From a virus, in IMG/VR virus record IMGVR_UViG_3300043466_001485, positions 1 through 37,683 of that record: DNA of 37,683 bases. One strand, given 5' to 3'. Of the stretch, positions 720 to 37,677 are shown piece after piece. Numbering within the stretch: the first letter of the stretch is position 1; each line of letters begins with the position of its first letter. Below the pieces are notes generated by a model that was not told the DNA's origin, searched no databases, and saw only the letters and a program-made list of their open reading frames with translations. A program made the position numbers and the translations under genes.

Positions 720-940
720 TTAAACGCCTTTCGTTGAATTTTATCGGCAGGAAGTTCTAATTCGTTGCATAAAAAATGAAAGAATTTTGAGGTGAGAAAT
801 GCCTTGGCAGTTCCTCGATAATGATTATGCAGATTTTGCGCGTCGCTTCTTTGAAATGTTTTGTCTTCCATATCGGCTACCGCCTGCTCGATTACCGCAC
901 ACCAGACGTTGCGGGTGAATTCTTGTTCGGCCCAGGTCAT
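716..940 (-). CDS. Hypothetical protein, 74 aa
   Basis: The start is set at the ATG at 940 (MTWAEQEFTR), because this ATG overlaps the stop of the small gene 937-1077 as ATGA; the frame is open further upstream but that part reads as a shadow of the neighbour. The protein is mostly helical with a mildly basic C-terminus and two cysteines. It belongs to the early operon in front of the Hjc-like nuclease. No family is recognised. Confidence 0.7.
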   Translation of the reverse strand: MTWAEQEFTRNVWCAVIEQAVADMEDKTFQRSDAQNLHNHYRGTAKAFLTSKFFHFLCNELELPADKIQRKAFK

Positions 941-1077
941 CGCAGGATAAAACGTGGAGACTTCTGATTGCGCATCCGCTCGCGGACTGTCCCGGCCAAA
1001 TAGCCGAGGATGGCGGTGCAGGTTGAGATTACGCCGATGATGGCGAGAAATTCGGTGGGTGTCATTACTTGGTTCAT
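937..1077 (-). CDS. Small single-span membrane protein, 46 aa
   Basis: ATG at 1077, stop TGA at 937-939. One hydrophobic segment (residues about 9-28, FLAIIGVISTCTAILGYL core) is followed by a basic tail (VRERMRNQK), which predicts an N-out, C-in topology by the positive-inside rule. The gene is joined to both neighbours by ATGA overlaps, the strongest argument that it is real despite its length. A role in early host takeover, superinfection exclusion or lysis timing is conceivable, but nothing in the sequence decides this. Confidence 0.65.
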   Translation of the reverse strand: MNQVMTPTEFLAIIGVISTCTAILGYLAGTVRERMRNQKSPRFILR

Positions 1078-1220
1078 TTGATAAGTTGGATGTGATAGGG
1101 CTTTTGGCCTTTTTCTTGTTCAAATTTAATCACGGCATCTTGCCGATCTTTTGCCCAGACATAATCGGAGTAAATCCCGAATGCGCCTGTGGCGGTGCAG
1201 AGGTAAAGGTAAACTTTCAT
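1074..1220 (-). CDS. Hypothetical protein, 48 aa
   Basis: ATG at 1220 and TGA at 1074-1076, with ATGA overlaps at both ends. The protein begins MKVYLYLCTATGAF and continues with a DYVWAKDRQDAVIKFEQ segment, resembling a small alpha/beta fold of the kind seen in many tiny phage proteins. No function is assigned. Coupling to its neighbours and protein-like composition support it as a true gene. Confidence 0.65.
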   Translation of the reverse strand: MKVYLYLCTATGAFGIYSDYVWAKDRQDAVIKFEQEKGQKPYHIQLIK

Positions 1221-15447: not shown

Positions 15448-16104
15448 TCAAATCGGCCTGCGAATGCGGAATTGTTTGGGATGAACCCAGTCGTGCTGGG
15501 GATGATCAGGGATGTGATACCAATTATCTCGAAGCGCCGATGCGAGGATTGACGGCGACGAGTTGATGGTCAGCACCTGTCCCGCGTAGCGAATCCATGC
15601 GCAAAGATCAGCGATGCTCGGCAGCTCAATCATGCCGTGGTCACGCTTGCCAATGTAGGCGTGAGGCATATTGGGGAAGAGCATCTGCGCATATTCCACA
15701 ACGCGCCTCGGGTCGATTGGCCATTGCTGGCTGTAGCCAGTCGGAAAGACCAAGAGCGCATCAGAGAGTTCTGGCGGGACCACGATGGCAGGAGGCTGGA
15801 GAACGATTTGACGATCGATTTCCGCTGGCAGTGGATCGTAGATAAAATCCATCCAGTTTTTCCCGCTTGCCAAAAATTCAGCATTTCGTGCTGGCCAGAT
15901 TTGCAAATCAAAGACGAGATCAAACGCTCTTCGATCAGCTCCGGGATAGCATGGTTTGCAATACGGCACCATCTCAAAAAGTCCATGATATTCAGGCAGG
16001 CATTCGAAGATCACGTCATGGCCTTGGTCTGCATAATGCTTCGCAATCGGCAGGCATCGAGCGATGTCCCCGAGGCGCATGTGGTAAATGATCAAAACGT
16101 TCAT
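15448..16104 (-). CDS. GT9-like glycosyltransferase (heptosyltransferase fold)
   Basis: 218 aa. It begins NVLIIYHMRLGDIARCLPIAK, the nucleotide-fold start of GT-B heptosyltransferases with the LGD motif, followed by GHDVIFECLPEYHGLFEMV. The C-terminal part holds SIADLCAWIRYAGQVLTINSSPSILASAL, which matches the donor-binding helix-loop of the family where S/T-x-x-x-H/S-x-A-A patterns occur. It is about two-thirds of the usual length (near 330 aa), so the inter-domain part is reduced. The ATGA overlap to the small gene upstream ties it to the cassette. It would transfer a sugar to a glycan or virion acceptor; the acceptor is unknown. Confidence 0.7.
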   Translation of the reverse strand: MNVLIIYHMRLGDIARCLPIAKHYADQGHDVIFECLPEYHGLFEMVPYCKPCYPGADRRAFDLVFDLQIWPARNAEFLASGKNWMDFIYDPLPAEIDRQIVLQPPAIVVPPELSDALLVFPTGYSQQWPIDPRRVVEYAQMLFPNMPHAYIGKRDHGMIELPSIADLCAWIRYAGQVLTINSSPSILASALRDNWYHIPDHPQHDWVHPKQFRIRRPI

Positions 16105-16316
16105 TTGTGGAAAAATGTCTTGAAAAGGTGGTCGAAAGCTCGGGAATCTCCAGCGGCTCTGGTCTCGTCAAATTGCTCTGTGGCACTGCGACGTGCAATC
16201 GCCCAAGTTGTATCAAACATTTTTTTCAAGCCACGAGCGCTGAGCGTCACCATGCCTCCCCGATCAAAGACAGGATTGCGCTTGACATATCGTGCCCATA
16301 ATTCATCGCGTGTCAT
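16101..16316 (-). CDS. Small protein of the glycosyltransferase cassette, 71 aa
   Basis: The start is the ATG at 16316 (MTRDELWARYVKRNPVF), overlapping the upstream stop as ATGA. The pattern MTR..L...Y...NP with MVTLSARGLKKMFDTTW is seen in small proteins near head genes of several tailed phages, so it may be a head-module gene caught between the sugar enzymes rather than part of their pathway. Confidence 0.65.
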   Translation of the reverse strand: MTRDELWARYVKRNPVFDRGGMVTLSARGLKKMFDTTWAIARRSATEQFDETRAAGDSRAFDHLFKTFFHK

Positions 16317-20945: not shown

Positions 20946-20954
20946 AAGCCTGGA

Positions 20955-21404
20955 CTAATCTTCGGAGAGGAGAGCGAGCGCGATGGCCGTGAGCTTTGCC
21001 ATGTCGAGTGGCTTGCATCCCACGACTGGCAGGGAGAGAGATATCGTCTGCCGTGATCGTGATGCTGACAGATATGTCACGCATCCCTGCGTCGAAATCG
21101 ACGTTGTTAGATCGACAATCACCGGCGATGTGGACTGCGAGAATGTTGTCCCGAGGGGAACGACCTGGGAGGAAATTGAGATGACCGGATCGACGTTTGA
21201 AAAAAGTGTCAAACGCACCCCGCGCACGCGCACGGTGACTGGTCGCTTCTTCGGTTCTGCCCCGCCGCCCCCCGGGAGATCCAGAGGCGAGATGATGGGC
21301 GGCGGGGCTTGCGACCGAAGCAGTCCTTGTGAGCCTATAATCAGCGGCGTCGGGCTTGGAAGCAAGCCCTGCGCGGCGATGAGTAGACTCGTCAGAATGG
21401 TCAT
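20955..21404 (-). CDS. Minor head-region protein with QGLL motifs, 149 aa
   Basis: Begins at an ATG sharing one base with the previous stop (TGATG). The N-terminus has two QGLL motifs (LLIAAQGLLPSPTPLIIG then SQGLLRS) and a Pro/Gly linker, followed by a basic segment (KKRPVTVRVRGVRL) and a Ser/Thr-rich beta part. The 46-aa protein at 23116-23256 has the same QGL spacing, so the two may be paralogues. Function unknown. Confidence 0.5.
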   Translation of the reverse strand: MTILTSLLIAAQGLLPSPTPLIIGSQGLLRSQAPPPIISPLDLPGGGGAEPKKRPVTVRVRGVRLTLFSNVDPVISISSQVVPLGTTFSQSTSPVIVDLTTSISTQGCVTYLSASRSRQTISLSLPVVGCKPLDMAKLTAIALALLSED

Positions 21405-22837: not shown

Positions 22838-23119
22838 TTAGAGTCCTTTCGAGAGAATGAATTTTTGGATTGCCGCGCTAATCTCGGCGACGGCTGTGAG
22901 AGTTGATTGATCAGCATCGGAGATAGAGCCGAGAGCGAGATTGACTGCCTGCTCTTGCGCCTGCTCGACCTCATCGCCTTCGATGCGCGTCGGGATGAAG
23001 CGTGCGGCAATATTCGCATCGCTGGATCCGTCACTGTTATATTTTCCGGTGATGGCAAGATTCAGCGAATAGCGGTCGTAAGTTTTTCCGTCAATGACGA
23101 TGGGATTGGTGGCGTTCAT
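22838..23119 (-). CDS. Small head-region protein, 93 aa
   Basis: The start (ATG 23119) overlaps the stop of a 46-aa gene and has AAGGA five bases upstream. The protein begins NPIVIDGKTYDRYSLNLAITGKY and has an Ala/Gln-rich helical C-terminal half. It reads as a compact virion or chaperone protein. No family is recognised. Confidence 0.55.
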   Translation of the reverse strand: MNATNPIVIDGKTYDRYSLNLAITGKYNSDGSSDANIAARFIPTRIEGDEVEQAQEQAVNLALGSISDADQSTLTAVAEISAAIQKFILSKGL

Positions 23120-23256
23120 AGAAGTCCTTGGGTTGCGATTTTAAGCGGGTTGATTGTGATGAGTCCTTGGGAGGAGATGATCAGTGTGCGCGTCTTTGCG
23201 GCGATTGCAATCGAGACGCCGAGCGGAGTCAGTGAGCCGAAGAGCGGAGAAATCAT
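23116..23256 (-). CDS. Small hydrophobic protein, 46 aa
   Basis: ATG at 23256 and TGA at 23116-23118, with ATGA overlaps to genes on both sides. The sequence begins MISPLFGSLTPLGVSIAIAA and holds IISSQGLITINPLKIATQGLL, with QGL motifs like the N-terminus of the protein at 20955-21404. It could be a duplicated small structural module. Its reality rests on the coupling pattern and on this similarity. Confidence 0.6.
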   Translation of the reverse strand: MISPLFGSLTPLGVSIAIAAKTRTLIISSQGLITINPLKIATQGLL

Positions 23257-23666
23257 GCGAGGAGAATCAAAGCCTGGTTGGCTGTTGGTGTTGGAAATTT
23301 GAGTTCAAATTTCCCATCCGTGACATGGCGCTCCGCGCCGAAATTGAGCACGCAGAGAGCCGCGCCATCTTTGCTCGCGTTGTAGATCAGAGCGCCAGAT
23401 GCGGAGAACGTGGCATTGTCGAGGACAACGTCGGAGAACGTGACGTAGGCATTTTTCCCGGCCATGCCATTGCGAAAGCCTTTGAGAAGGACGCCGCCGA
23501 TCGGATAGCCTTTGCCGGTGATTTCCCCGGCGCTTGTATAGCTTCGAGTGTTCGGCCCGATCTTCGCGTCACGTCCATAAAAAGCGATGCGGTAATCGTC
23601 GCCAGGTTGATGGACGCCGAACAAAAAAGCCTTTTTGGCTTCGAAGCAAATTCCGTGTTGAATCAT
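23253..23666 (-). CDS. Minor virion protein, 137 aa
   Basis: Coupled to the portal gene by ATGA. The layout, KAFLFGVHQPGDDYRIAFYGRDAKIG then GYPIGGVLLKGF, ASGALIYNASKDGAALCVLNFG and a beta C-terminus, belongs to a widespread phage protein found in head and tail modules (a small beta sandwich, often reported as hypothetical). The repeated occurrence of this pattern supports a virion role. Confidence 0.65.
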   Translation of the reverse strand: MIQHGICFEAKKAFLFGVHQPGDDYRIAFYGRDAKIGPNTRSYTSAGEITGKGYPIGGVLLKGFRNGMAGKNAYVTFSDVVLDNATFSASGALIYNASKDGAALCVLNFGAERHVTDGKFELKFPTPTANQALILLA

Positions 23667-25864
23667 AATTTCGATTGGTTGTAGCAGACAGCGGCGCGTT
23701 GATCGGCCTGTGGATATTCGGAAACCATCAAATCATCTTGCATACACCGTGCAACGAAATCTTGCTCGCTCTCTCCGCTCGACGGAGTCGGCATGACGAG
23801 TTCGGTCTTGTCCACGAGCGATGCCGATGTGGGTTGCCCGTAAGCGTCAAATTCAAACTTGACGGCCTTCAGTTTTTTGGAGGCGATTTTCTTGACTTTG
23901 GCCGCCGCCCACTCTGCGCCTGCGTCGCCGCCCCAGAGAGCCCACGCAATGCGGCCCGCCGACGGGAAGCCCGTCTCGCCCGGTCGGAAGCCTGTCGCCT
24001 TTTTATCGACCGCATGGCGAGAGAAGAAAGAGTGCATGCGCTTGACGGTGGAGTCGGAAAGGTTCTTTCGATTCGCAATGTCACGAGCGCGCGCCACACC
24101 CACAGCAGTGCCTCCACGACCATGTTCTCGACGCCATTGCAAGCCCCTTTTAGCTTCCGTCGCCATTGATTCATTCGGGAGGTTTTGACGTGTGTCGAGT
24201 TCATTCGTTGTTGGTTCTGCTTCGATTGGCGCTTGCTTTGCATTGATGATTTTAGCGGCGGCATCTTCGTCCATGCCGAAGACAGTAACGAGGATGATGG
24301 CGACCTGTTCGGGTGTTAGCTTACCCTCACCCATGGCAGCAAGAATTCCACCGAGCGCATCAGTTCCACCGATGCCGATTGAATCAATGAGAGGAGGTGC
24401 AGATTCTTCACCTTCCTCGATCTTGGAATCGATGATCGTGATCGGCACGGAATCGGAAATGCGGCTTGGTTGCACCTCGTATTCTTGGCCGAGTTCCTTG
24501 ATCATCGCGGCCTCTTTGGCGCGCGCTCGCAGGGCTTCTTCGTAATCTTCGCCAGCATCGCTGTAGATTTGTCCAGCGGTCTTGAGACCAGCTTTCCAAA
24601 GCGCAATGTCCGCATTGGCTTCGCGCCCATAATCGATCGAGACCTTGGCCGGCCAGCACCAGCGACCATCCAAGAGATATTCGCTGGACGGCAGGAGTCC
24701 ACGCGCGGAGGCATCCAACAAGACAATGTTCTTGATGCGCTCGAGAAATTGACGCTCCAAGAATCCGCGCCAGCGAGCAAACGTGCGCTCGGCCATAGCG
24801 GCCTCGAGACGCGCCATTGGCCCCGATTTGTCGGCATCGTAAGCGAATCCATACGGCAGGCCAACCGCCATGCAGATGTGCGATTGCACCATTCTCACGA
24901 ATTCTTGGAAGGCACCGCCGGGGCGTTCGCTTTTGAAGACCTCCATCTTCTCGCCGGGTGTCAGATAGTTGACGGTTCCGGGTTCGATCGAGGAAAGACG
25001 CTGGAGCTGATTGCTGTCGGAAATTGTCGCACGTGTGAAATAATCGCTCGGATCCGCCGCGCCATTTTCAGAGTAGATGATGCCAGTCTGGTAAGCAGCC
25101 CATTTGATCGCCTGCACTTCGGCTTTGATCGTCTCTTGTAGATCCCGAGTCGCATTCAGAGCGGACGCAAAGGCGCTTCGTCCACGGTATTCGTCGAGGC
25201 GCATTGCGTCGAAAATGTGAACGAATTCAGAAGCCGCAACATCAGCTGGCGAGATATATTGGTTGTTGATCGTGCGCGAAAAGATCGTGAACGACACCGG
25301 CCTTCCGTATTCATCAAGATTGATTCCGCCGATGTATTTGTCGGTATCGGTGCGGTCGTATGGCGAACCGATGCGATCAGCCTCGACCGATTGCAAGCGA
25401 AGATCGGCGCCGTCGCGAACAATGATAAATCCGCAATCACCATCGCGGAGGACTGCCATCACGGCGAGCTGAAGCAATTCAATGAATCCGTGGCGACGCG
25501 AGAAATCGCACGATGCGCACCATTTCGCCCAGTAGCGTTCGACCGCTTCATCGAGTTCATGGTCGCCAGTCCGGGCTTGATAGTTCAAGCGGCCAGCAAC
25601 ATAGGTCGCGAATTTGAGGAGGAGAGAGCGAACGGGCGAGAAGTTGTCAGCAAGGTCACGTGCGGCACGGATTAGTTGGTATCGTTCGCGTGTTGCGGAT
25701 GTGTCTTCTGCGCCCGAAATGTTTCTTGAAATCCCGCGCTTAGTCGAATCCAGAGCGGCATCAAAGCGCCCGAATTCACGCAGGCGTGCCTGTTCGACCA
25801 TGCGCGTCATGGCCAACTTAGGTGACACGACTGCCAGCGCGCGGGTGATAAGGTCAGGCTTCAT
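23663..25864 (-). CDS. Portal protein (lambda gpB family) with two extra C-terminal modules
   Basis: 733 aa, about 170 longer than the usual portal core. Residues 1-500 show the lambda-type portal pattern (NFSPVRSLLLKFATYVAG, HGFIELLQLAVMAVLRDGDCGF, YRGRSAFASALNATRDLQETI, GLPYGFAYDADKSGPMARLEAAM, trimmed). Residues 567-658 form a second module (AKRGLQWRREHGRGGTAVG, NRKNLSDSTVKRMHSFFSRH, GRIAWALWGGDAG), usually found in capsid-protease-type proteins. Residues 691-733 hold a short MPTPSSGESEQDFVARCM module with a conserved RCM and C-terminal AVCYNQ. ATGA overlaps join it to both neighbours. Confidence 0.88.
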   Translation of the reverse strand: MKPDLITRALAVVSPKLAMTRMVEQARLREFGRFDAALDSTKRGISRNISGAEDTSATRERYQLIRAARDLADNFSPVRSLLLKFATYVAGRLNYQARTGDHELDEAVERYWAKWCASCDFSRRHGFIELLQLAVMAVLRDGDCGFIIVRDGADLRLQSVEADRIGSPYDRTDTDKYIGGINLDEYGRPVSFTIFSRTINNQYISPADVAASEFVHIFDAMRLDEYRGRSAFASALNATRDLQETIKAEVQAIKWAAYQTGIIYSENGAADPSDYFTRATISDSNQLQRLSSIEPGTVNYLTPGEKMEVFKSERPGGAFQEFVRMVQSHICMAVGLPYGFAYDADKSGPMARLEAAMAERTFARWRGFLERQFLERIKNIVLLDASARGLLPSSEYLLDGRWCWPAKVSIDYGREANADIALWKAGLKTAGQIYSDAGEDYEEALRARAKEAAMIKELGQEYEVQPSRISDSVPITIIDSKIEEGEESAPPLIDSIGIGGTDALGGILAAMGEGKLTPEQVAIILVTVFGMDEDAAAKIINAKQAPIEAEPTTNELDTRQNLPNESMATEAKRGLQWRREHGRGGTAVGVARARDIANRKNLSDSTVKRMHSFFSRHAVDKKATGFRPGETGFPSAGRIAWALWGGDAGAEWAAAKVKKIASKKLKAVKFEFDAYGQPTSASLVDKTELVMPTPSSGESEQDFVARCMQDDLMVSEYPQADQRAAVCYNQSKL

Positions 25865-26130
25865 GGGCGTTGTGTCGGGAATGATGTCACAAACTTCTTG
25901 ACGCGCAACCCACGAGAATCATCGATCGCCGCTTGGAGTTCTTTGATCGTGTCAGAGACTTCGGCCAAATTCGCGCGGGTGAATGACCGCCCGGCGATGC
26001 TGTAGCTCGCCCCAGCCACGGCAATGGCCTTCAAGCAGGAGGTGAAATCGATCAGCAATTCTTGCAACGTGGCAAGCGGCAGACCGAAAAATGTTTTTTT
26101 AAGAGCCATCCTTTTTGAGGGCCTTGTCAA
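25861..26130 (-). CDS. gpW-like head-tail joining protein candidate
   Basis: 89 aa. The frame begins at a TTG at 26130 that overlaps the terminase stop (TTGA), or at the ATG at 26109, 17 bases further on; the second gives 82 aa. ATLQELLIDFTSCLKAIA, then YSIAGRSFTRANLAEVSDTIKELQAAI, matches the helix-hairpin-helix pattern of gpW (short helix, beta turn with aromatic residue, second helix ending in EL). It is placed between terminase and portal, as gpW is in lambda. Confidence 0.65.
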   Translation of the reverse strand: MTRPSKRMALKKTFFGLPLATLQELLIDFTSCLKAIAVAGASYSIAGRSFTRANLAEVSDTIKELQAAIDDSRGLRVKKFVTSFPTQRP

Positions 26131-27851
26131 ATTTCAGTCGGCAGAACCCGCGCCAACATTGCGGCGGCGAGCGCGATGCACTCGCAGTCCCAAAGGTGAT
26201 TCGCTTTGCCCCCGAGGCGCACCCATCGCTGCTCGACCTGCTTCGTTTTTGCATTGACAACATCGCGCTTGGCTTCGGAGAGCATGTGCCGCCGGTATTC
26301 ATCGGAGGCATCCCGCGGGACTTCCCACAGCGGCACGGCATCGGGTTGTCGCAATGCGGCCAACCTGTCTTTGATGCCTTCGTTGGAGTAGAAAAAGTAT
26401 GCGCATTTGAGCCCATGCGAACCTGCCTGTGCCGCCTCAATTTTGGAAACAAATCGCTTGATGCGTCTGCCGCCTTCTTGCGTCCAGAATCCATCGGAAC
26501 CGCTTCCGTGCGAGGCCGTCCAACCGCGCTTGGCGCATTGCTCGTAAACGATCGGCGTGTCGTAGCCTGCGTCCACCACCACGCATCGCGGTGCGATATT
26601 GTATTGAGTCGCCAGTCCATCCAACATTTCCCACGTCAGCGGTCGCGATTCGTGAATCAACCGTGATGATCCATCAACGCGGAACGCGCGGATGATTGCC
26701 CAGAAATGGTCGCGCTGTTTATCGACTGCGAGAAACCGGAACGCTTCGCCATCGATCTTCTGGCCCTCCGTAAATTCGCCCTTGCCATAGTCCGCAGTCG
26801 AAACATCCGGGAGATCAGAGACGACCTCCTCGACCCATGGATTTGCCTTGCGCTTTTGAACGAATTGTTTTAGCGGTTCCACGTTCCCGCTGTGCTTGGC
26901 TTCGTTCGCTTCCAGAAATTCGCGGACAAGCGAGAACCACGGGATCCACCAGACAGCGTGCGCCGGGAATTCGAACGATCTGACGCCTCGCACCGGATGT
27001 GGATTCATGGCGCGATAGCTCCCGCGCCCTGCGAGCTGGCGCCTTTGAGCGGCGGTATCGCAAAATACCGAAGTGCAATGTTGGCATTTCATCGAAACGC
27101 TGGCTTCCAGTTCATCCCATTTCCAGCCGCTCTCGCCCTTGGCTTCATTGTCCCAGGTAATGGCGTCGAATAAATATCGTTGCCATGCTCCGCAACTCGG
27201 ACACTCGAAACCCCAGACCTCTTGCGTTCCGTTGTTCCATTCCCCATCGGCCTCGTGCGGTGAATCCCAGCCCTGCGAGACGAGAATCGTCTTGCGATTC
27301 CATCGATCGTGGTGCCGCGCTTTGAGTTCCTTGATCATACCGCCTTTCCAGCGCCAGACCTCATCCCCCACGCAGTAGCGCATGGACTTTTCTTGGAGGT
27401 TGGTGATGTTGGCGCCACCGGCGAAGAGCGCCATATGCGGGAAGAGGATTGTGGTTTTCCGCATGGCGTGACGGTCTTCGGGAAAGAGTGAGCGCACTGG
27501 CTCGCATTCTTGGAAAATTGGGATGAGGCGACTCTCAGTCCAATCTTTAACCATGTCATCTGTTTGTCCAACAAGGAGTGTTGGCCCCGGCTTCTGTGCA
27601 ACAATATAACACGTAAGCGTTTCAAGGAAAGTGGTTTTCCCACCTCCTGTCGGGGCTCTTAATACAACCTCGACTGCCTCGTCATCCGTGGCCGCAATGA
27701 GCGGAGCATTGAGCCACGGCGCGACCGCGCGGTCGAAGCGGCTCGATCGGTCGCTGTTCGGGAAGCGGACATGGGCTTCTGCCCAGTCCAAGATGGTTCC
27801 CGAGAATGCGAGTTTGATGCCTTTGCAGAAGCCGGTGATCAATGCGCTCAT
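26127..27851 (-). CDS. Terminase large subunit (lambda GpA family)
   Basis: 574 aa from the ATG at 27851, chosen because it overlaps the upstream stop (ATGA); a start seven codons earlier is also open. Walker A is APTGGGKTTF (66-75, K72), Walker B is YCVGDE (159-164), with CxxC pairs at C217/C220 and C256/C259 forming the GpA zinc ribbon. Nuclease acids are FLAVDKQ (D377) and VVVDAGYD (D427), with a third near residue 555 (WDCECIA). This is the cos-type packaging motor. The gene overlaps the gpW-like gene by four bases. Confidence 0.93.
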   Translation of the reverse strand: MSALITGFCKGIKLAFSGTILDWAEAHVRFPNSDRSSRFDRAVAPWLNAPLIAATDDEAVEVVLRAPTGGGKTTFLETLTCYIVAQKPGPTLLVGQTDDMVKDWTESRLIPIFQECEPVRSLFPEDRHAMRKTTILFPHMALFAGGANITNLQEKSMRYCVGDEVWRWKGGMIKELKARHHDRWNRKTILVSQGWDSPHEADGEWNNGTQEVWGFECPSCGAWQRYLFDAITWDNEAKGESGWKWDELEASVSMKCQHCTSVFCDTAAQRRQLAGRGSYRAMNPHPVRGVRSFEFPAHAVWWIPWFSLVREFLEANEAKHSGNVEPLKQFVQKRKANPWVEEVVSDLPDVSTADYGKGEFTEGQKIDGEAFRFLAVDKQRDHFWAIIRAFRVDGSSRLIHESRPLTWEMLDGLATQYNIAPRCVVVDAGYDTPIVYEQCAKRGWTASHGSGSDGFWTQEGGRRIKRFVSKIEAAQAGSHGLKCAYFFYSNEGIKDRLAALRQPDAVPLWEVPRDASDEYRRHMLSEAKRDVVNAKTKQVEQRWVRLGGKANHLWDCECIALAAAMLARVLPTEI

Positions 27852-28012
27852 TTGATTTTTCTTGCAATCCATTTCGAGCGCGAAACACTACCGCGCTCGC
27901 GATCAATACGCTCCCAATCAGAGACCTGGAGCGATACTGATTTTGCAATGGCCTTTCGGCCTTTCCCTGATCCGGGCTTTCGCCCGGAGCCTTTGCGTGC
28001 GCCGCCTCTCAT
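27848..28012 (-). CDS. Ribbon-helix-helix protein, 54 aa
   Basis: ATG at 28012 and TGA at 27848-27850, with ATGA overlaps to both neighbours. The N-terminus is a basic Gly-rich tail (GGARKGSGRKPGSGKGRK) of the type often found before DNA-binding domains. KSVSLQVSDWERIDRERG then VSRSKWIARKI fits a MetJ/Arc ribbon-helix-helix domain with SVSLQV as the DNA-contact strand. It stands between two small genes and the large terminase and may bind packaging or promoter DNA. Confidence 0.7.
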   Translation of the reverse strand: MRGGARKGSGRKPGSGKGRKAIAKSVSLQVSDWERIDRERGSVSRSKWIARKIK

Positions 28013-28191
28013 TGTTTAATAAAATGTTGATAGGCGGCTCGCCATTTAACAATCAAATCCGAATGCTCTTGGCATTGGGGGTCCAGAAGCCATTGTTCAT
28101 CGTCGATTGCTTTACATGCAGCAATAAGGCGGTCAAGGTCGGCTTTGGCTGCCGCGTAAGTTACGTCAATTTTTTCGTCGTCAAGTTTCAT
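28009..28191 (-). CDS. Hypothetical protein, 60 aa
   Basis: Acidic, helical protein (MKLDDEKIDVTYAAAKADL ... DEQWLLDPQCQEHSDL) starting five bases after the tRNA-like sequence and ending with an ATGA overlap to the ribbon-helix-helix gene. No Shine-Dalgarno sequence; the leader is AAAAA. Function unknown. Confidence 0.6.
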   Translation of the reverse strand: MKLDDEKIDVTYAAAKADLDRLIAACKAIDDEQWLLDPQCQEHSDLIVKWRAAYQHFIKQ

Positions 28192-28195
28192 TTTT

Positions 28196-28221
28196 TAGAT
28201 GGCGCGGGGATCGAACCCGCG
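28196..28221 (-). other. tRNA T-arm and 3' acceptor-like sequence
   Basis: Minus strand GCGGG-TTCGATC-CCCGC is a five-pair stem with a perfect T-loop (TTCRANC pattern), followed by a seven-base GCCATCT acceptor-like strand and A. No matching 5' half (expected AGATGGC) occurs upstream, so it is not a full tRNA. It may be a fragment of a host tRNA, an attachment-site core or a chance hairpin. Confidence 0.45.
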
Positions 28222-28577: not shown

Positions 28578-29057
28578 CTATTTATGCGGTTCGGCGGCGT
28601 TGACTGATTGGAGTTCGGCCTTGATTTCCGAGAGCATTTGTTGCGTGCGCTCGTGCAATCGAGTGCGGATTTCTGCTTCGCCAAGACCGGCCAAGATGCC
28701 ACTGCAATCGTTCACGAGAGCCGCCAATTTCGCGCAGAGGATGGTGCCGACTCTCACGCCATCTTCTTCGATCTCGGCCTTCGAGACTAACTCGCCCCGG
28801 TCAGCCTGAATTTTGAGCCTGATTCGCTCCGTCTCCAGGATGGTCTTTTGCAACCGGGCTTCGGTGAGCGTGGTCGGCGCTTGTTCGCCACCACCTTTTT
28901 TTGCGAGGTAGGCGTCGCGCCATTTGGTTGCCTCTTCAACCGAGGAGATGGGCAACCCGAGTTTGACCCATTTGGCCACTGCTTGGCGGGAGACGCCCCA
29001 CGCGGTGGCGATGGTTTGGTGGCTAACCTGACAACCTCTTTTTTTTTGTTGAGTCAT
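28578..29057 (-). CDS. Terminase small subunit (Nu1-like)
   Basis: 159 aa. Residues 12-36 (SHQTIATAWGVSRQAVAKW region) form a helix-turn-helix, and the rest is long helices with basic and acidic faces (EARLQKTILETERIRLKIQADRGELVSKAEIEEDG). This matches DNA-binding small terminase subunits that pair with GpA. It is separated from the large subunit by three small genes. The start follows a near-leaderless promoter candidate. Confidence 0.8.
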   Translation of the reverse strand: MTQQKKRGCQVSHQTIATAWGVSRQAVAKWVKLGLPISSVEEATKWRDAYLAKKGGGEQAPTTLTEARLQKTILETERIRLKIQADRGELVSKAEIEEDGVRVGTILCAKLAALVNDCSGILAGLGEAEIRTRLHERTQQMLSEIKAELQSVNAAEPHK

Positions 29058-29121: not shown

Positions 29122-30125
29122 TTATAAAAATTCAAATTGAAATGCGTGTGGAATTTTTGCGGATTTCTTCCTGTTGTCATGTATGAAAAGCGGCTGAAGA
29201 TTAGAAATGTGATTTGCGATTTTTAGATTTTTATCATCAGAAAAATCAAATGAAGAAAGCGGCATGATATGATCAATTTCCCACACGGTTCCATGGTTAG
29301 ACCAATTCATTCCCTTTTTAAATTTTGACTGAATTCTGTTAATTGCGTCTTGTAGTGTTGTGCCGAGAAATGATGTTGTCAATCTGCCACTCTTTTTTTG
29401 TTTGGCCTTCATAAGCATTCTATTTACACCGCCACGTAATTTTGCTTTAATGCGACGTTTAGGATTGTTTTTGTAGATTTTGGCTTGTTGTCTACCGCGT
29501 TCGCGCCCTGCATGAACGTCAGCCCAATAGCGAATACAACCGTCAGATACGCTCCTCCAATCAAAACCAGGACCATAGTTCTCTTGTGCCCGCATAATCA
29601 GTTCGCATTTACGTTTGAGCGATTTGATTATTTTGAGAGATTTGTTTATTTTCTTCAGCTCGTTCTGACGGTATATTTCTTGTTGAGATTTGATTTTGGT
29701 TGATTTGATTTTTGTTGATCTCTCGATCAGCCTATTAGCGGCTAGTTTCGAACTAGAGCGCGGCAGTCCTCGTTTCTTGATAATATATCGAACTCTTGGA
29801 TGTTTGACTCGGTATAAACGCCTGGCAATCGACTTAGATCCCATGCCAAGACCAGCAAGACAAGAGATGCAAAGAAGTTCAGTGTATGGATTTTTTTTGC
29901 GTTCGCTCAAAGACTCAGCGAAACATTCGTGTGAGCAGAATTTTTGATTCTTGCTTTCGGATTCGAAGGCTTTTGAGCAACGAGAACAGGAGCCTTGATA
30001 TTTTGTCCTTTTGGCCTTCCGCCCTTCTTGCCGTTGATTCTGGACGCTGTGGCCTTCTTCTGTGTCTTTGAGAGACCAAGAACCCTGCCGATATTGATTG
30101 GCTGATTGCAATGTGGACATAGCAT
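29122..30125 (-). pseudogene. HNH endonuclease gene with a -1 frame change near its 5' end
   Basis: Two frames are needed. The ATG at 30125 opens MLCPHCNQPINIGRVLGL ... ASRINGKKGGRPKGQ, a known-looking N-terminal module with a CxxC pair. The rest continues in the -1 frame as GSCSRCSKAFESESKNQKFCSHEC (a zinc ribbon, trimmed), a GLGMGSKSIARRL helix-turn segment and an HNH domain near the end (EIDHIMPLSSF, then HISNLQPLFIHDN). The change lies near 30000-30020, where no canonical slippery heptamer is in phase, so mutation, read error or an unusual shift is possible. The alternative start at 30120 stays in one frame. HNH proteins next to terminases can assist packaging. Confidence 0.6.
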
Positions 30126-35200: not shown

Positions 35201-36158
35201 GGAGCTGTTTAATCGGCGTGCTCCGAATTATCGCCGCTTCGTTAAACTCCACACCAACCTTGATGCAGAGGTCTTGAAATTGGTTTCGTTTCAGTGTGCC
35301 CAGCACGCTCATCAATTGTTCTGTGGTCGCTCCGGTGGCCACGACTGCTTCAGCAAGAATCGTCTCTTGGCCTCGCATTTCGACGATCTTCCATCCGGGC
35401 ACCTCACGCTGTTCGACGCGGGAACGGAGTTCGGCTATGGCAGATTCGGCCAGTTCTTTTTCAAGGAATTTGAACCTGCGCACAAACTCGGCCAATGTCT
35501 CATCCGTGGCGTAAATCTCCGCACGGATATCGTCGATAGATTGCTCGCTGCGAGCCGTCTCGAGCGCCAATCGAGATTGCGTTACAATCGCCGTGCAGTT
35601 TGGTTTGTTGGCACACCAGTCGCAGTATTCACAAAGGCGAGGACTCGCCCAATCGTCAGTTGATTTCGCAATAAGATCACCAACGAGACGCGTTGCCTGT
35701 TCATACGTAAATCGCTCGGTTTGCGTCGTCTTCTTATCAACGTAAATCGTGTGTGCGGTCCATTCGTCTGCTTGGTAGTGATCCATGCAGGCGAGAGCGT
35801 ATGCGGCCAATTGAGCGCGATAGTCGCGTGCTTGTCCTGTCTTTATGTCTGCTACCCAGCGCCTGCCAGGACAGACTGCGTCAGCGGTGCCGAGGCGTGA
35901 GAGCCCGGGCACTGCCATAGCAAGATGGCTTTCGCGTGTCTCGACGTAGTCGTCGCCTAATTCCCGCAGCATATTGACTCCGTAAGCAATCGCCTCATAG
36001 TCCTCATCGGCCGGAATGTCTTCGCCCTGCTCGATCACGCGGCGAATGATTGCATCGATGCGTGTTCCGCGTTCGGCGGCTTCGCTGGAGCCCTCCTTGC
36101 CAACGAACAATGGGCATTCGTCGAGCTTAGGAAGCATGGATGGGGAGAGTTCTTTCAT
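35178..36158 (-). CDS. PD-(D/E)XK nuclease with an Fe-S-type cysteine cluster (RecB/Cas4-like)
   Basis: 326 aa. Nuclease motifs: GTAD (D93), VADIKTG (D104, K106) and QLAAYAL (Q116, Y120). One cysteine near the start (C15) and three close ones plus one later (C176, C179, C182, C188 in CEYCDWCANKPNC) repeat the pattern that in AddB and Cas4 holds a 4Fe-4S cluster. The C-terminal third is helical. It follows the RecA-like ATPase (ATGA overlap) and precedes the SSB protein, so it probably processes DNA ends for recombination. Confidence 0.82.
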   Translation of the reverse strand: MKELSPSMLPKLDECPLFVGKEGSSEAAERGTRIDAIIRRVIEQGEDIPADEDYEAIAYGVNMLRELGDDYVETRESHLAMAVPGLSRLGTADAVCPGRRWVADIKTGQARDYRAQLAAYALACMDHYQADEWTAHTIYVDKKTTQTERFTYEQATRLVGDLIAKSTDDWASPRLCEYCDWCANKPNCTAIVTQSRLALETARSEQSIDDIRAEIYATDETLAEFVRRFKFLEKELAESAIAELRSRVEQREVPGWKIVEMRGQETILAEAVVATGATTEQLMSVLGTLKRNQFQDLCIKVGVEFNEAAIIRSTPIKQLRQTKNKK

Positions 36159-37066
36159 GGTATTGCGGCGAAGAATTTTTCCGGGTTAGCTTTGATGCGT
36201 GCAAACACGCGCTCTTCCATGTTGCGGAATGTCTGGCCCTCGGCGATGAGATTTTTGCTCAAAAGATAGCTGTTGACTTTCTCTTCGTTTTTTGCCAGTC
36301 GATCTTCCAAGGTCACCGTCTCGGAGTCGACAATTTCAACCGCAGGCGCTGGCTTGGGTGCTGGTGCATTAAATAGATGCGCAACGCTCGCCCAGGTCAT
36401 CGGCAGTTCCTCCGGAAGTCCGGAGCGTGTTTTTGCATCGTAGGCCGCGCTGTGCGTGGTCAAGATGATGCGTTCCTTGCCACCAATGCCTTTGGCCCGT
36501 CCGGATTCAGATTCCACCGTCTTGGTCTTGAAGCGAAAGAACCAGAGTTCATCAGCCCATTCTTTGACCAGCGGACTGGATTGTTTGGAGAGCTTGAGCT
36601 CATAGCGATCATATGCCGCCGGGAGATCCGGTGGCTCGACTTTGGTGACCTTGCTGTGCGCGATGAGTGCGACATTTTTGCCTGCGACAATTAAGCTGTC
36701 CAATCGGCTCAAGAAGCCTGCGATTTTCTCGCTCACCATTACCCAGCCTTTGCCAAATCCGAAATCCTCAATTGATCCTTTTTTGTGCTGTGCCAGCAGG
36801 TCCGCAATGGCAAGGCGCTCGGCCCAGTCTGCGGAATCGATAATGACCGTCTTGTAGTCAAGATGCGCGCACTCAGAGACAGCATCGTTGAGCTGTTTCC
36901 AACTGTCGATTTCAGCTCGTGCGGTGTCGAGGTGAGCGGTGCCGCCCTCAACGTCGAGGAAAAGCGGTGCCGGGAATTGCGCGGCGAATGTCGATTTACC
37001 GACTGATTCGACGCCGTAGATGACCACGCGCTGTGCGCGGGTTTGTTTGCCTTTTGTGATGTTCAT
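36155..37066 (-). CDS. RecA-like ATPase (AAA_24 type), recombination/replication
   Basis: 303 aa. Walker A GVESVGKST (K24), then LFLDVEGGTAHLD, Walker B TVIIDSAD (D77) and VALIAHSKVTKVEPPD as sensor region. This belongs to the phage ATP-binding proteins that occur next to RecB-type nucleases and DUF669 SSB proteins, and that are thought to act as recombinase or loader. A C-terminal extension (FNAPAPKPAPAVEIVD and a helical end) may bind partners. Confidence 0.82.
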   Translation of the reverse strand: MNITKGKQTRAQRVVIYGVESVGKSTFAAQFPAPLFLDVEGGTAHLDTARAEIDSWKQLNDAVSECAHLDYKTVIIDSADWAERLAIADLLAQHKKGSIEDFGFGKGWVMVSEKIAGFLSRLDSLIVAGKNVALIAHSKVTKVEPPDLPAAYDRYELKLSKQSSPLVKEWADELWFFRFKTKTVESESGRAKGIGGKERIILTTHSAAYDAKTRSGLPEELPMTWASVAHLFNAPAPKPAPAVEIVDSETVTLEDRLAKNEEKVNSYLLSKNLIAEGQTFRNMEERVFARIKANPEKFFAAIP

Positions 37067-37167
37067 TTTGATTTTTTTCTTTTGTTGGTTTTGTTCTGCG
37101 GACGTCCAATTAGCAATTTCAAATATTTGGGACGCCAGTTTAATAATACTTTTTTTAAGGGTAACAT
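37063..37167 (-). CDS. Small basic protein, 34 aa
   Basis: ATG at 37167, TGA at 37063-37065, overlapping the ATPase start as ATGA. It encodes MLPLKKVLLNWRPKYLKLL followed by a Lys/Asn-rich tail (NKTNKRKKSK). The tail coincides with the A-rich leader of the ATPase gene, so its sequence may be shaped by that leader. The gene may serve mainly as a translational entry for the ATPase. Confidence 0.45.
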   Translation of the reverse strand: MLPLKKVLLNWRPKYLKLLIGRPQNKTNKRKKSK

Positions 37168-37176
37168 AATAGGTAA

Positions 37177-37677
37177 TTATTGAGCGAGTCGAAGCATTGT
37201 ATCGGCAACATTGTCTAAGAATCCAGATTCTTTTAATACTTGAAGTCTTTCGCAGAGCTCAACAAATTCTTTTAGCCTTGCTATTTCTTCTTTGTAATCA
37301 CCACCTAGAAAGAACTGCCTTACCTCTTTTAACGCACCTGTCATTTGCGATGTCTCGGCAACCATCGCAAATCTTACACTGCGAATATCCTCTAAATATC
37401 TTTTATTGTCTGCGCGAAACTTTTCCATTTCGCCGCCAATGCCCTCAACTAGTTCGTGAATAATTAGACGCGCATCTTCTGCCGCCTTTACATTTGGCCG
37501 AGTTTCTTTTGGCAACTTTGCGATTTCGGCGCAAATTAATGCGGCCATTTCATCTAAATCAAAAACCTGCTGGCCGTTTACGGTGCGAATTGTAAGGCCC
37601 GAATTTGCAACATATGATGACCCTGGTATCCCAGAGGCTATTCCATTAACAACTACATCTGATTTTATTGTGCTCAT
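37177..37677 (-). CDS. 3' part of the junction-spanning gene; helical protein of 166 aa from the internal ATG
   Basis: From the ATG at 37677 (equal to 121) the protein is MSTIKSDVVVNGIASGIPG, a beta-like VNGQQVFDLDEMAALI element, then helices with heptads (EKFRADNKRYLEDIR, YKEEIARLKEFVELCERL). It ends at TAA 37177. The frame also continues upstream across the junction to 394. It is coded just before the small basic ORF and the RecA-like ATPase. No family is recognised. Confidence 0.65.
   Translation of the reverse strand: MSTIKSDVVVNGIASGIPGSSYVANSGLTIRTVNGQQVFDLDEMAALICAEIAKLPKETRPNVKAAEDARLIIHELVEGIGGEMEKFRADNKRYLEDIRSVRFAMVAETSQMTGALKEVRQFFLGGDYKEEIARLKEFVELCERLQVLKESGFLDNVADTMLRLAQ

Follow-up and report, generated by a model that had tools for sequence, protein, structure and literature searches.

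When a very short open reading frame (ORF) is tied to both of its neighbours by an overlap of stop and start codons, is it a gene, and what becomes of such a joint when genes are exchanged around it? This question is raised by a virus record of 37,683 bases (IMG/VR record IMGVR_UViG_3300043466_001485; the whole stretch is called the window here), whose called genes lie nearly all on the minus strand, as do all genes concerned here. The original prediction named five very short genes held between their neighbours by the overlap ATGA, one of them directly before the gene of the large terminase subunit (TerL). Taken as a whole, we consider the following explanation probable: four of the five are real, small genes that belong to a long operon on a single strand and are joined by ATGA, accessory genes are exchanged at such joints with the four-base overlap kept or formed again, and translation is coupled across them. 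As shown by comparison of relatives, accessory genes are gained, lost or replaced at these joints with both flanking genes unchanged, and a new gene brings its own start, the overlap usually being present on both sides afterwards.

Short genes and their overlaps

A pair of genes on the same strand that shares four bases of stop and start is denoted here by the offset -4. ATGA overlaps are present at 23116-23119, 23253-23256, 27848-27851 and 28009-28012, and further at 937-940, 1074-1077, 1217-1220 and 37063-37066, in agreement with the places predicted. The codon counts of the ORFs at 23116, 27848, 37063, 937 and 1074 (46, 54, 34, 46 and 48) confirm the lengths proposed for them (46, 54 and 34-48). 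The ORFs at 23116, 27848, 937 and 1074 form a -4 pair at both ends and are indeed locked between neighbours. That at 37063 is joined at its downstream side only, with a gap of 9 nucleotides (nt) to the gene ending at 37177. A census on a hand-refined list of 58 genes gave 57 junctions for the window, with offsets of -4 in 22, -1 in three and -8 in two. When nested starts are included, the coding strand has 12 ORFs of 30-60 amino acids bounded by ATGA on either side and the opposite strand has 4; of the 12, those at 23116, 27848, 937 and 1074 are the four joined to called genes on both sides.

A permuted relative of the window (G001; IMGVR_UViG_3300037502_001767, 36,941 bases) allowed us to follow these frames, its main aligned segments being 84-98% identical, mostly 87-90% (roughly 89%). 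The ORFs at 23116, 27848, 1074 and 937 are open in G001 and carry ATGA at both ends, so that the conservation of overlaps suggested earlier as a check holds for four of the five. The ratio of non-synonymous to synonymous change (dN/dS) between the two genomes is 0.24 for 23116 (9.5 synonymous and 6.5 non-synonymous differences), 0.17 for 27848 (14.5 and 9.5) and 0.24 for 1074 (8.5 and 9.5; the first codons may be misaligned). These values of 0.17-0.24 show that the three genes are under purifying selection. The ORF at 937 differs by one synonymous and one non-synonymous change, too few for dN/dS, and with an open frame and two changes only it is the weakest-supported of the four accepted genes. 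The 34-codon ORF (37063..37167, minus strand) was judged not to be a gene: in G001 the frame that leads into this ATGA contains a TAG, lacks a start codon and stays open over 11 codons. Here, in both genomes, the stretch resembles the A-rich leader of the gene at 36155-37066. The claim of five real genes, free of stops and frameshifts in relatives, is thus upheld for four and fails for 37063.

The 46-codon gene at 23116..23256 (minus strand) lies between a 137-residue gene upstream (23253..23666, minus strand) and a 93-residue gene downstream (22838..23119, minus strand), and its protein is intact with both overlaps in a further relative (L047), at 65% amino acid identity. The 54-codon gene (27848..28012, minus strand) adjoins TerL at -4, directly before it as predicted. 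TerL (26127..27851, minus strand) is of the gpA type, with the Pfam domains GpA_ATPase and GpA_nuclease. Its overlap with the stop of the 54-codon gene presupposes that translation begins with the ATG at 27851, which is codon eight of the longest ORF, and it is at this position that the TerL matches in relatives begin. In G001 the 54-codon gene has 59 codons, the start lying five codons farther upstream. On its upstream side a 60-codon gene (28009..28191, minus strand) follows at -4, for which no match was found in G001, where a different gene of 75 residues sits at -4. At the other end of the window, the 46-codon gene at 937..1077 (minus strand) encodes one hydrophobic stretch, judged by eye, with a weak match to the holin family phrog_1350 (E 0.0015), and overlaps the 48-codon gene at 1074..1220 (minus strand). 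The upstream neighbour of the latter (1217-1393) has no DNA match in G001, and for this reason the doubtful 35-codon ORF that there overlaps the 5' ATGA of the 48-codon gene was taken as leader sequence. Since this leader-like ORF also ends in ATGA, an overlap alone is no proof of a gene. As a practical rule for phage genes below about 50 codons, overlap at both ends together with conservation should be demanded.

Exchange of genes before the large terminase

The gene of the small terminase subunit (TerS; 28578..29057, minus strand; phrog_57, E 1.2e-15) is the first gene of an interval ending at TerL. We examined this interval in 80 of 235 loci with matching TerL; ORFs between TerS and TerL were called by a chain score with a small bonus for -4 and then clustered into families (F numbers). 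Of the 80 loci, 78 have ATGA at the start of TerL, the exceptions being L005 (GTGA) and L003, where the match begins inside the gene. The last joint before TerL, in the 80 records with an ORF there, is -4 in 75, +1 in four and +501 in one (L085). Among the +1 cases, that of L082 results from an intein-like insert and is not genuine, its true joint being -4. The others (L015, L070, L072) look like remnants of an F7 gene, and in each of them a 22- or 51-codon ORF also ends in ATGA at TerL.

The gene just before TerL swaps among unrelated families. Eight kinds of partner meet TerL at -4: F0 (69 residues, before TerL in most relatives) in 52 loci, F2 (a hydrophobic peptide of 24 residues) in 13, F7 (288 residues, PAPS-reductase-like) in three, F11 (DNA methyltransferase) and F3 (the 54-residue family) in two each, and F27 (QueD-like), F30 and F32 in one each. 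The two F3 cases are the window and an identical copy, L002. On a TerL tree of 82 rows with 77 different TerL, some records being identical, the partner changes at least 22 times (79 labelled rows) and the presence of F2 at least 11 times. Joints at -4 make up 130 of 227 before TerL versus 12 of 166 after it, and the ordered pair kinds that show such a joint are 21 of 37 versus 8 of 87. The arrangement of a TerS-like gene and TerL at -4 is also found in distant relatives, namely in P8625 (gp05 and gp06), which is the best-ranked named phage with a TerL 25% identical to that of the window, and in contig L110 of a Verrucomicrobia metagenome-assembled genome (34%; TerL start located by codon counting). 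From these two distant Verrucomicrobia relatives, the phage probably infects Verrucomicrobiota.

Several larger genes between TerS and TerL may be mentioned separately: a QueD-like gene (L005:1187-2199), a PAPS-reductase-like gene (L049:901-1767) and a DNA methyltransferase gene (L012:689-1396), perhaps with functions in DNA modification. The methyltransferase at 938-1570 of L047 begins with the codons MNPLL, similar to the TerL start consensus MNPLA, as if the start region of a terminase had been captured.

Precision of insertion

Ten pairs of near relatives were picked by hand. Two of them could not be measured, as one member had no F0, and the eight others gave net inserts of 71 nt (four pairs, F2), 863 nt (three pairs, F7) and 1009 nt (one pair, F18 with F27). 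In each case this corresponds to the gene length minus four bases per joint. The flanks are identical in 49-56 of 60 bases on each side, reaching up to the overlap, which is ATGA save for the GTGA of L005, and the flanking genes were neither lengthened nor trimmed in any of the eight comparisons.

The smallest of these inserts, F2, looks coding. Its frame has no stops in 12 distinct copies versus 25 and 9 stops in the other frames, the pooled dN/dS is 0.43, and the motif FIWDAR is kept in L081 at 46% identity. The 24-codon hydrophobic peptide (MIISIIIAILLVGLFIWDARKDIE) is found at L071:789-863 and in 13 other loci, patchily before TerL, with a weak match to phrog_21118.

Other sites of gene exchange

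The window has no F0 before TerL. Instead, an F0 homologue of 71 codons (E 9e-15) was found at 16101..16316 (minus strand) between a 184-residue and a 218-residue gene, with ATGA at both ends and -4 on both sides. Among 13 records searched, 12 have an F0-like match, single in 11 and twofold in G010, with none in G002; in the three records worked through by coordinate arithmetic (G005, G008, G012) the single copy is the one before TerL. The 218-residue gene was found in seven records. In six of them it meets the 184-residue gene directly at -4, by TTGA, and in the seventh (L125) an ORF of 64 residues occupies the joint, with offsets of -4 and -16.

A plain ATGA joint of the window (36155..36158, minus strand) is the place where G001 has an additional gene of 68 residues, which has offsets of -4 and -8 to its two neighbours and lies between copies of the eight-base repeat ATGAATAA. 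Both neighbours of the 46-codon gene at 23116, of 137 and 93 residues, were found in 44 rows, and 41 of these lack the gene itself; the neighbours are then spaced at +2, +3 or +5 in 40 rows and overlap by -4 in one (L010). The three remaining rows have the gene, and two of them represent a single contig.

Gene content of the window and G001 differs also at gene ends without -4, as exemplified by a gene at 29122-30120 and a 235-bp insert near 20950. A preference of breakpoints for -4 joints over other gene ends was not shown; both kinds occur between the two genomes, as seen by eye and without a count. The gene at 29122-30120 encodes 332 residues with a weak endonuclease VII match (phrog_1035, E 1.2e-5) and has no DNA match in G001. 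A protein of 149 residues (20955-21404; seen in the G001 copy, with a similar one in L086) shares a repeated QGLL-type motif with the 46-residue protein of 23116-23256.

Translation signals and a proposed course of exchange

Pairing with the anti-Shine-Dalgarno (anti-SD) sequence averages -3.0 kcal/mol at the 22 -4 joints of the window versus -2.76 at random positions (p 0.76). For the 14 genes after gaps above 20 nt it is -0.64, weaker than random (p 0.002), after gaps of 0-20 nt -0.53 and at other overlaps -1.55. A strong SD signal driving the small genes is thus not seen in the window. The A content of the 20 bases before the start is 37% after long gaps and 33% at -4 joints, with 26% in the genome, and reaches 75% for genes in the slot after TerL (32 records). 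Passages of PMC10783764 describe some Verrucomicrobia as scarce in SD sequences, and passages of PMC6728339 report reinitiation at overlaps without an essential SD in H. volcanii and a need for SD that differs from pair to pair in E. coli. Since pairing in the window is no better than at random positions and such SD-scarce or SD-free cases have been reported, we infer that the small genes and TerL are handed over from one stop to the next start.

The course of exchange may then be as follows. Accessory genes without promoters would enter where translation can be handed on, and the genes downstream, TerL included, would probably be translated by termination and reinitiation. Of the recombinants, those with such joints would be the ones mostly kept by selection for coupled translation, and the finished arrangements would then spread between phages by recombination in the conserved flanks. 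A still more general view, which we put forward tentatively, is that the -4 overlap serves as a docking joint at which promoterless genes of 24-288 codons enter, leave and move between sites, keeping or remaking the overlap on both sides. If this is true, gene content could change without disturbing the translation of the essential terminase, despite little or no SD signal.

Several observations weigh against exchange at coupled joints as the explanation. The -4 offset is already the commonest overlap in the window, so part of the pattern is expected; our gene-chain caller favoured it by a small bonus, and few inner branches of the TerL tree (25 of 74) are strong. Accessory genes downstream of TerL are mostly without such joints, as the 8 of 87 pair kinds indicate. 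Imprecise inserts occur as well: F11 at +2 (L012, L013), the 64-residue ORF at -16, the F29/F30 region of L010, and the G001 gene of 68 residues at -8 on its 3' side. Pairing with the anti-SD is somewhat better at the -4 joints of the window than for genes that follow long gaps (p 0.07), and it averages -3.76 at the TerL starts with a -4 offset (75 records, a value without a matched background), which leaves room for a weak SD contribution. Translation and its coupling are themselves predictions from sequence. In most relatives (40 of 44) the 137- and 93-residue genes do not overlap, so that the -4 joints there would have come with the new gene or after it. This last point speaks for selection for coupling rather than for recombination at an ATGA already present.

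Alternative explanations

Ordinary operon packing is the alternative that survives best, although we regard it as doubtful. According to it, -4 offsets are common in compact genomes and arise by chance extension or deletion, and the swaps represent phage mosaicism with breakpoints at gene ends. The 22 of 57 window junctions at -4 are in line with this, as are the differences from G001 at ends without -4 (the 29122-30120 gene and the insert near 20950), and overlapping pairs are described as widespread in prokaryotes in passages of PMC6728339. However, the offset to TerL is exactly -4 for eight kinds of partner. For six of them (F0, F2, F3, F7, F11, F27) this has a probability of about 0.004 at the window rate of 39%, by our own arithmetic, with kinds treated as independent and F30, F32 and the +1 kind F13 left out. 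Packing also does not account for flanking genes that were neither extended nor trimmed in eight comparisons, nor for the interval after TerL, where the -4 habit is missing (12 of 166 joints).

Less likely still is that ATGA acts as DNA microhomology, with cassettes recombining at a repeat of four or more bases and the precision stemming from recombination instead of translation. Direct repeats with ATGA in them border the inserts, some of them longer, such as ATGAATAA around the G001 gene of 68 residues, and similarity to the TerL start (consensus MNPLA) is seen in the N-termini of F7 (MNPF, MNPL, MTPL) and in that of F11 from L047 (MNPLL). Against this stand the GTGA joint of TerL in L005 and the TTGA of six relatives at the site between the 184- and 218-residue genes, from which it appears that the overlap is kept rather than the tetramer. 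There is also no ATGA between the 137- and 93-residue genes in most relatives, and as a substrate for known recombination systems four bases would be very short.

A third alternative, in which the short ORFs lie open by chance between true genes, is very improbable: it holds for 37063, and since ATG is commonly followed by A the G001 leader ORF ending in ATGA looks like chance too, but for 23116, 27848 and 1074 it is already disfavoured by dN/dS of 0.17-0.24 and by overlaps that are intact at both ends in relatives. As a full account of the data, chance overlaps are likewise disfavoured by dN/dS, the junction census and the precision of inserts.

The 54-residue protein

The protein encoded directly before TerL had been called a ribbon-helix-helix (RHH) protein, an assignment that should be read as a guess by pattern. 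The window protein has a basic GG-RKG-GRKPG N-terminus and two predicted helices. Its family, with 16 members aligned, shows 13 invariant positions and a basic GG-R-G-GR N-terminus. By eye, the family pattern SVSM..E.W..LD..RG..SRGKFI and the two helices resemble the short strand-helix-helix unit of RHH proteins. In contrast, the AlphaFold2 monomer model (mean pLDDT 72) has helices at 30-40 and 45-53 and no strand. A profile search against PDB sequences and a Foldseek search of the model against PDB folds each gave no matches at E<=10, and the 16 members matched no RHH family in Pfam and no NCBIfam family. As a proven RHH protein it is therefore unsupported. Homologues occur also after TerL and elsewhere in relatives. 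In L089 and L090 the start of the homologue overlaps the upstream stop as ATGA, and in L090 its end overlaps the downstream start too.

The slot after the large terminase

A second exchange slot lies between TerL and the head-tail adaptor gene (L035, from 8714 on, and another 26 loci; leader lengths 120-140 nt). Its leader, of about 130 nt, is conserved and is followed by unrelated small genes; many loci then have a trailer made up of a hairpin like the T arm of a tRNA (GCGGGTTCAATCCCCGC) and a T run. No Rfam match at gathering score was obtained for the leader from seven sources. A related hairpin is seen in the window at 28204-28220 (minus strand). TerL of G001 (L088, 2484-5249) is a frame of 921 codons in which, by eye, an intein-like insert (CLGLGTPILMFDGTIKPVEQVEVGDQL...) follows right after the P-loop GGGK; this insert is absent from TerL of the window.

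Comparison with known systems

The packaging and head genes resemble those of the lambda type, as exemplified by the Pfam families GpA_ATPase and GpA_nuclease, the lambda-family portal Phage_portal_2, the head-tail adaptor phrog_118 and the TerS phrog_57. They differ in that small accessory genes lie between TerS and TerL and that the best-ranked named TerL (P8625) is 25% identical.

Morons are phage accessory genes with their own promoter and terminator. The genes before TerL are similar to them as accessory genes inserted between conserved structural genes, but mostly join at -4 without a spacer. In the measured pairs the -4 on both sides leaves no room for an own promoter and terminator (no promoter scan was made). 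The slot after TerL in relatives looks closer to morons: its leader of about 130 nt is conserved, and many loci have the trailer of hairpin and T run.

A literature search gave no recognisable description of stop-start overlaps that form again on gene exchange. Our findings suggest a route by which phages with weak or no ribosome-binding sites could admit genes into an essential operon, namely by joining at stop-start overlaps; if this is general, the effect of translational coupling on gene exchange becomes measurable. The closest known systems are the overlapping pairs with termination-reinitiation of Huber et al. 2019 (PMC6728339). As far as passages of that study describe them, they share with our case the ATGA overlap, the co-directed genes, the expected coupling and an SD that is not always needed. 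These passages treat given gene pairs, whereas here unrelated partners swap at a joint and both sides again show the overlap, with coupling that is probable. The overlap itself is a known kind of gene joint; what deserves further attention is that it survives or forms again while unrelated partners are exchanged repeatedly.

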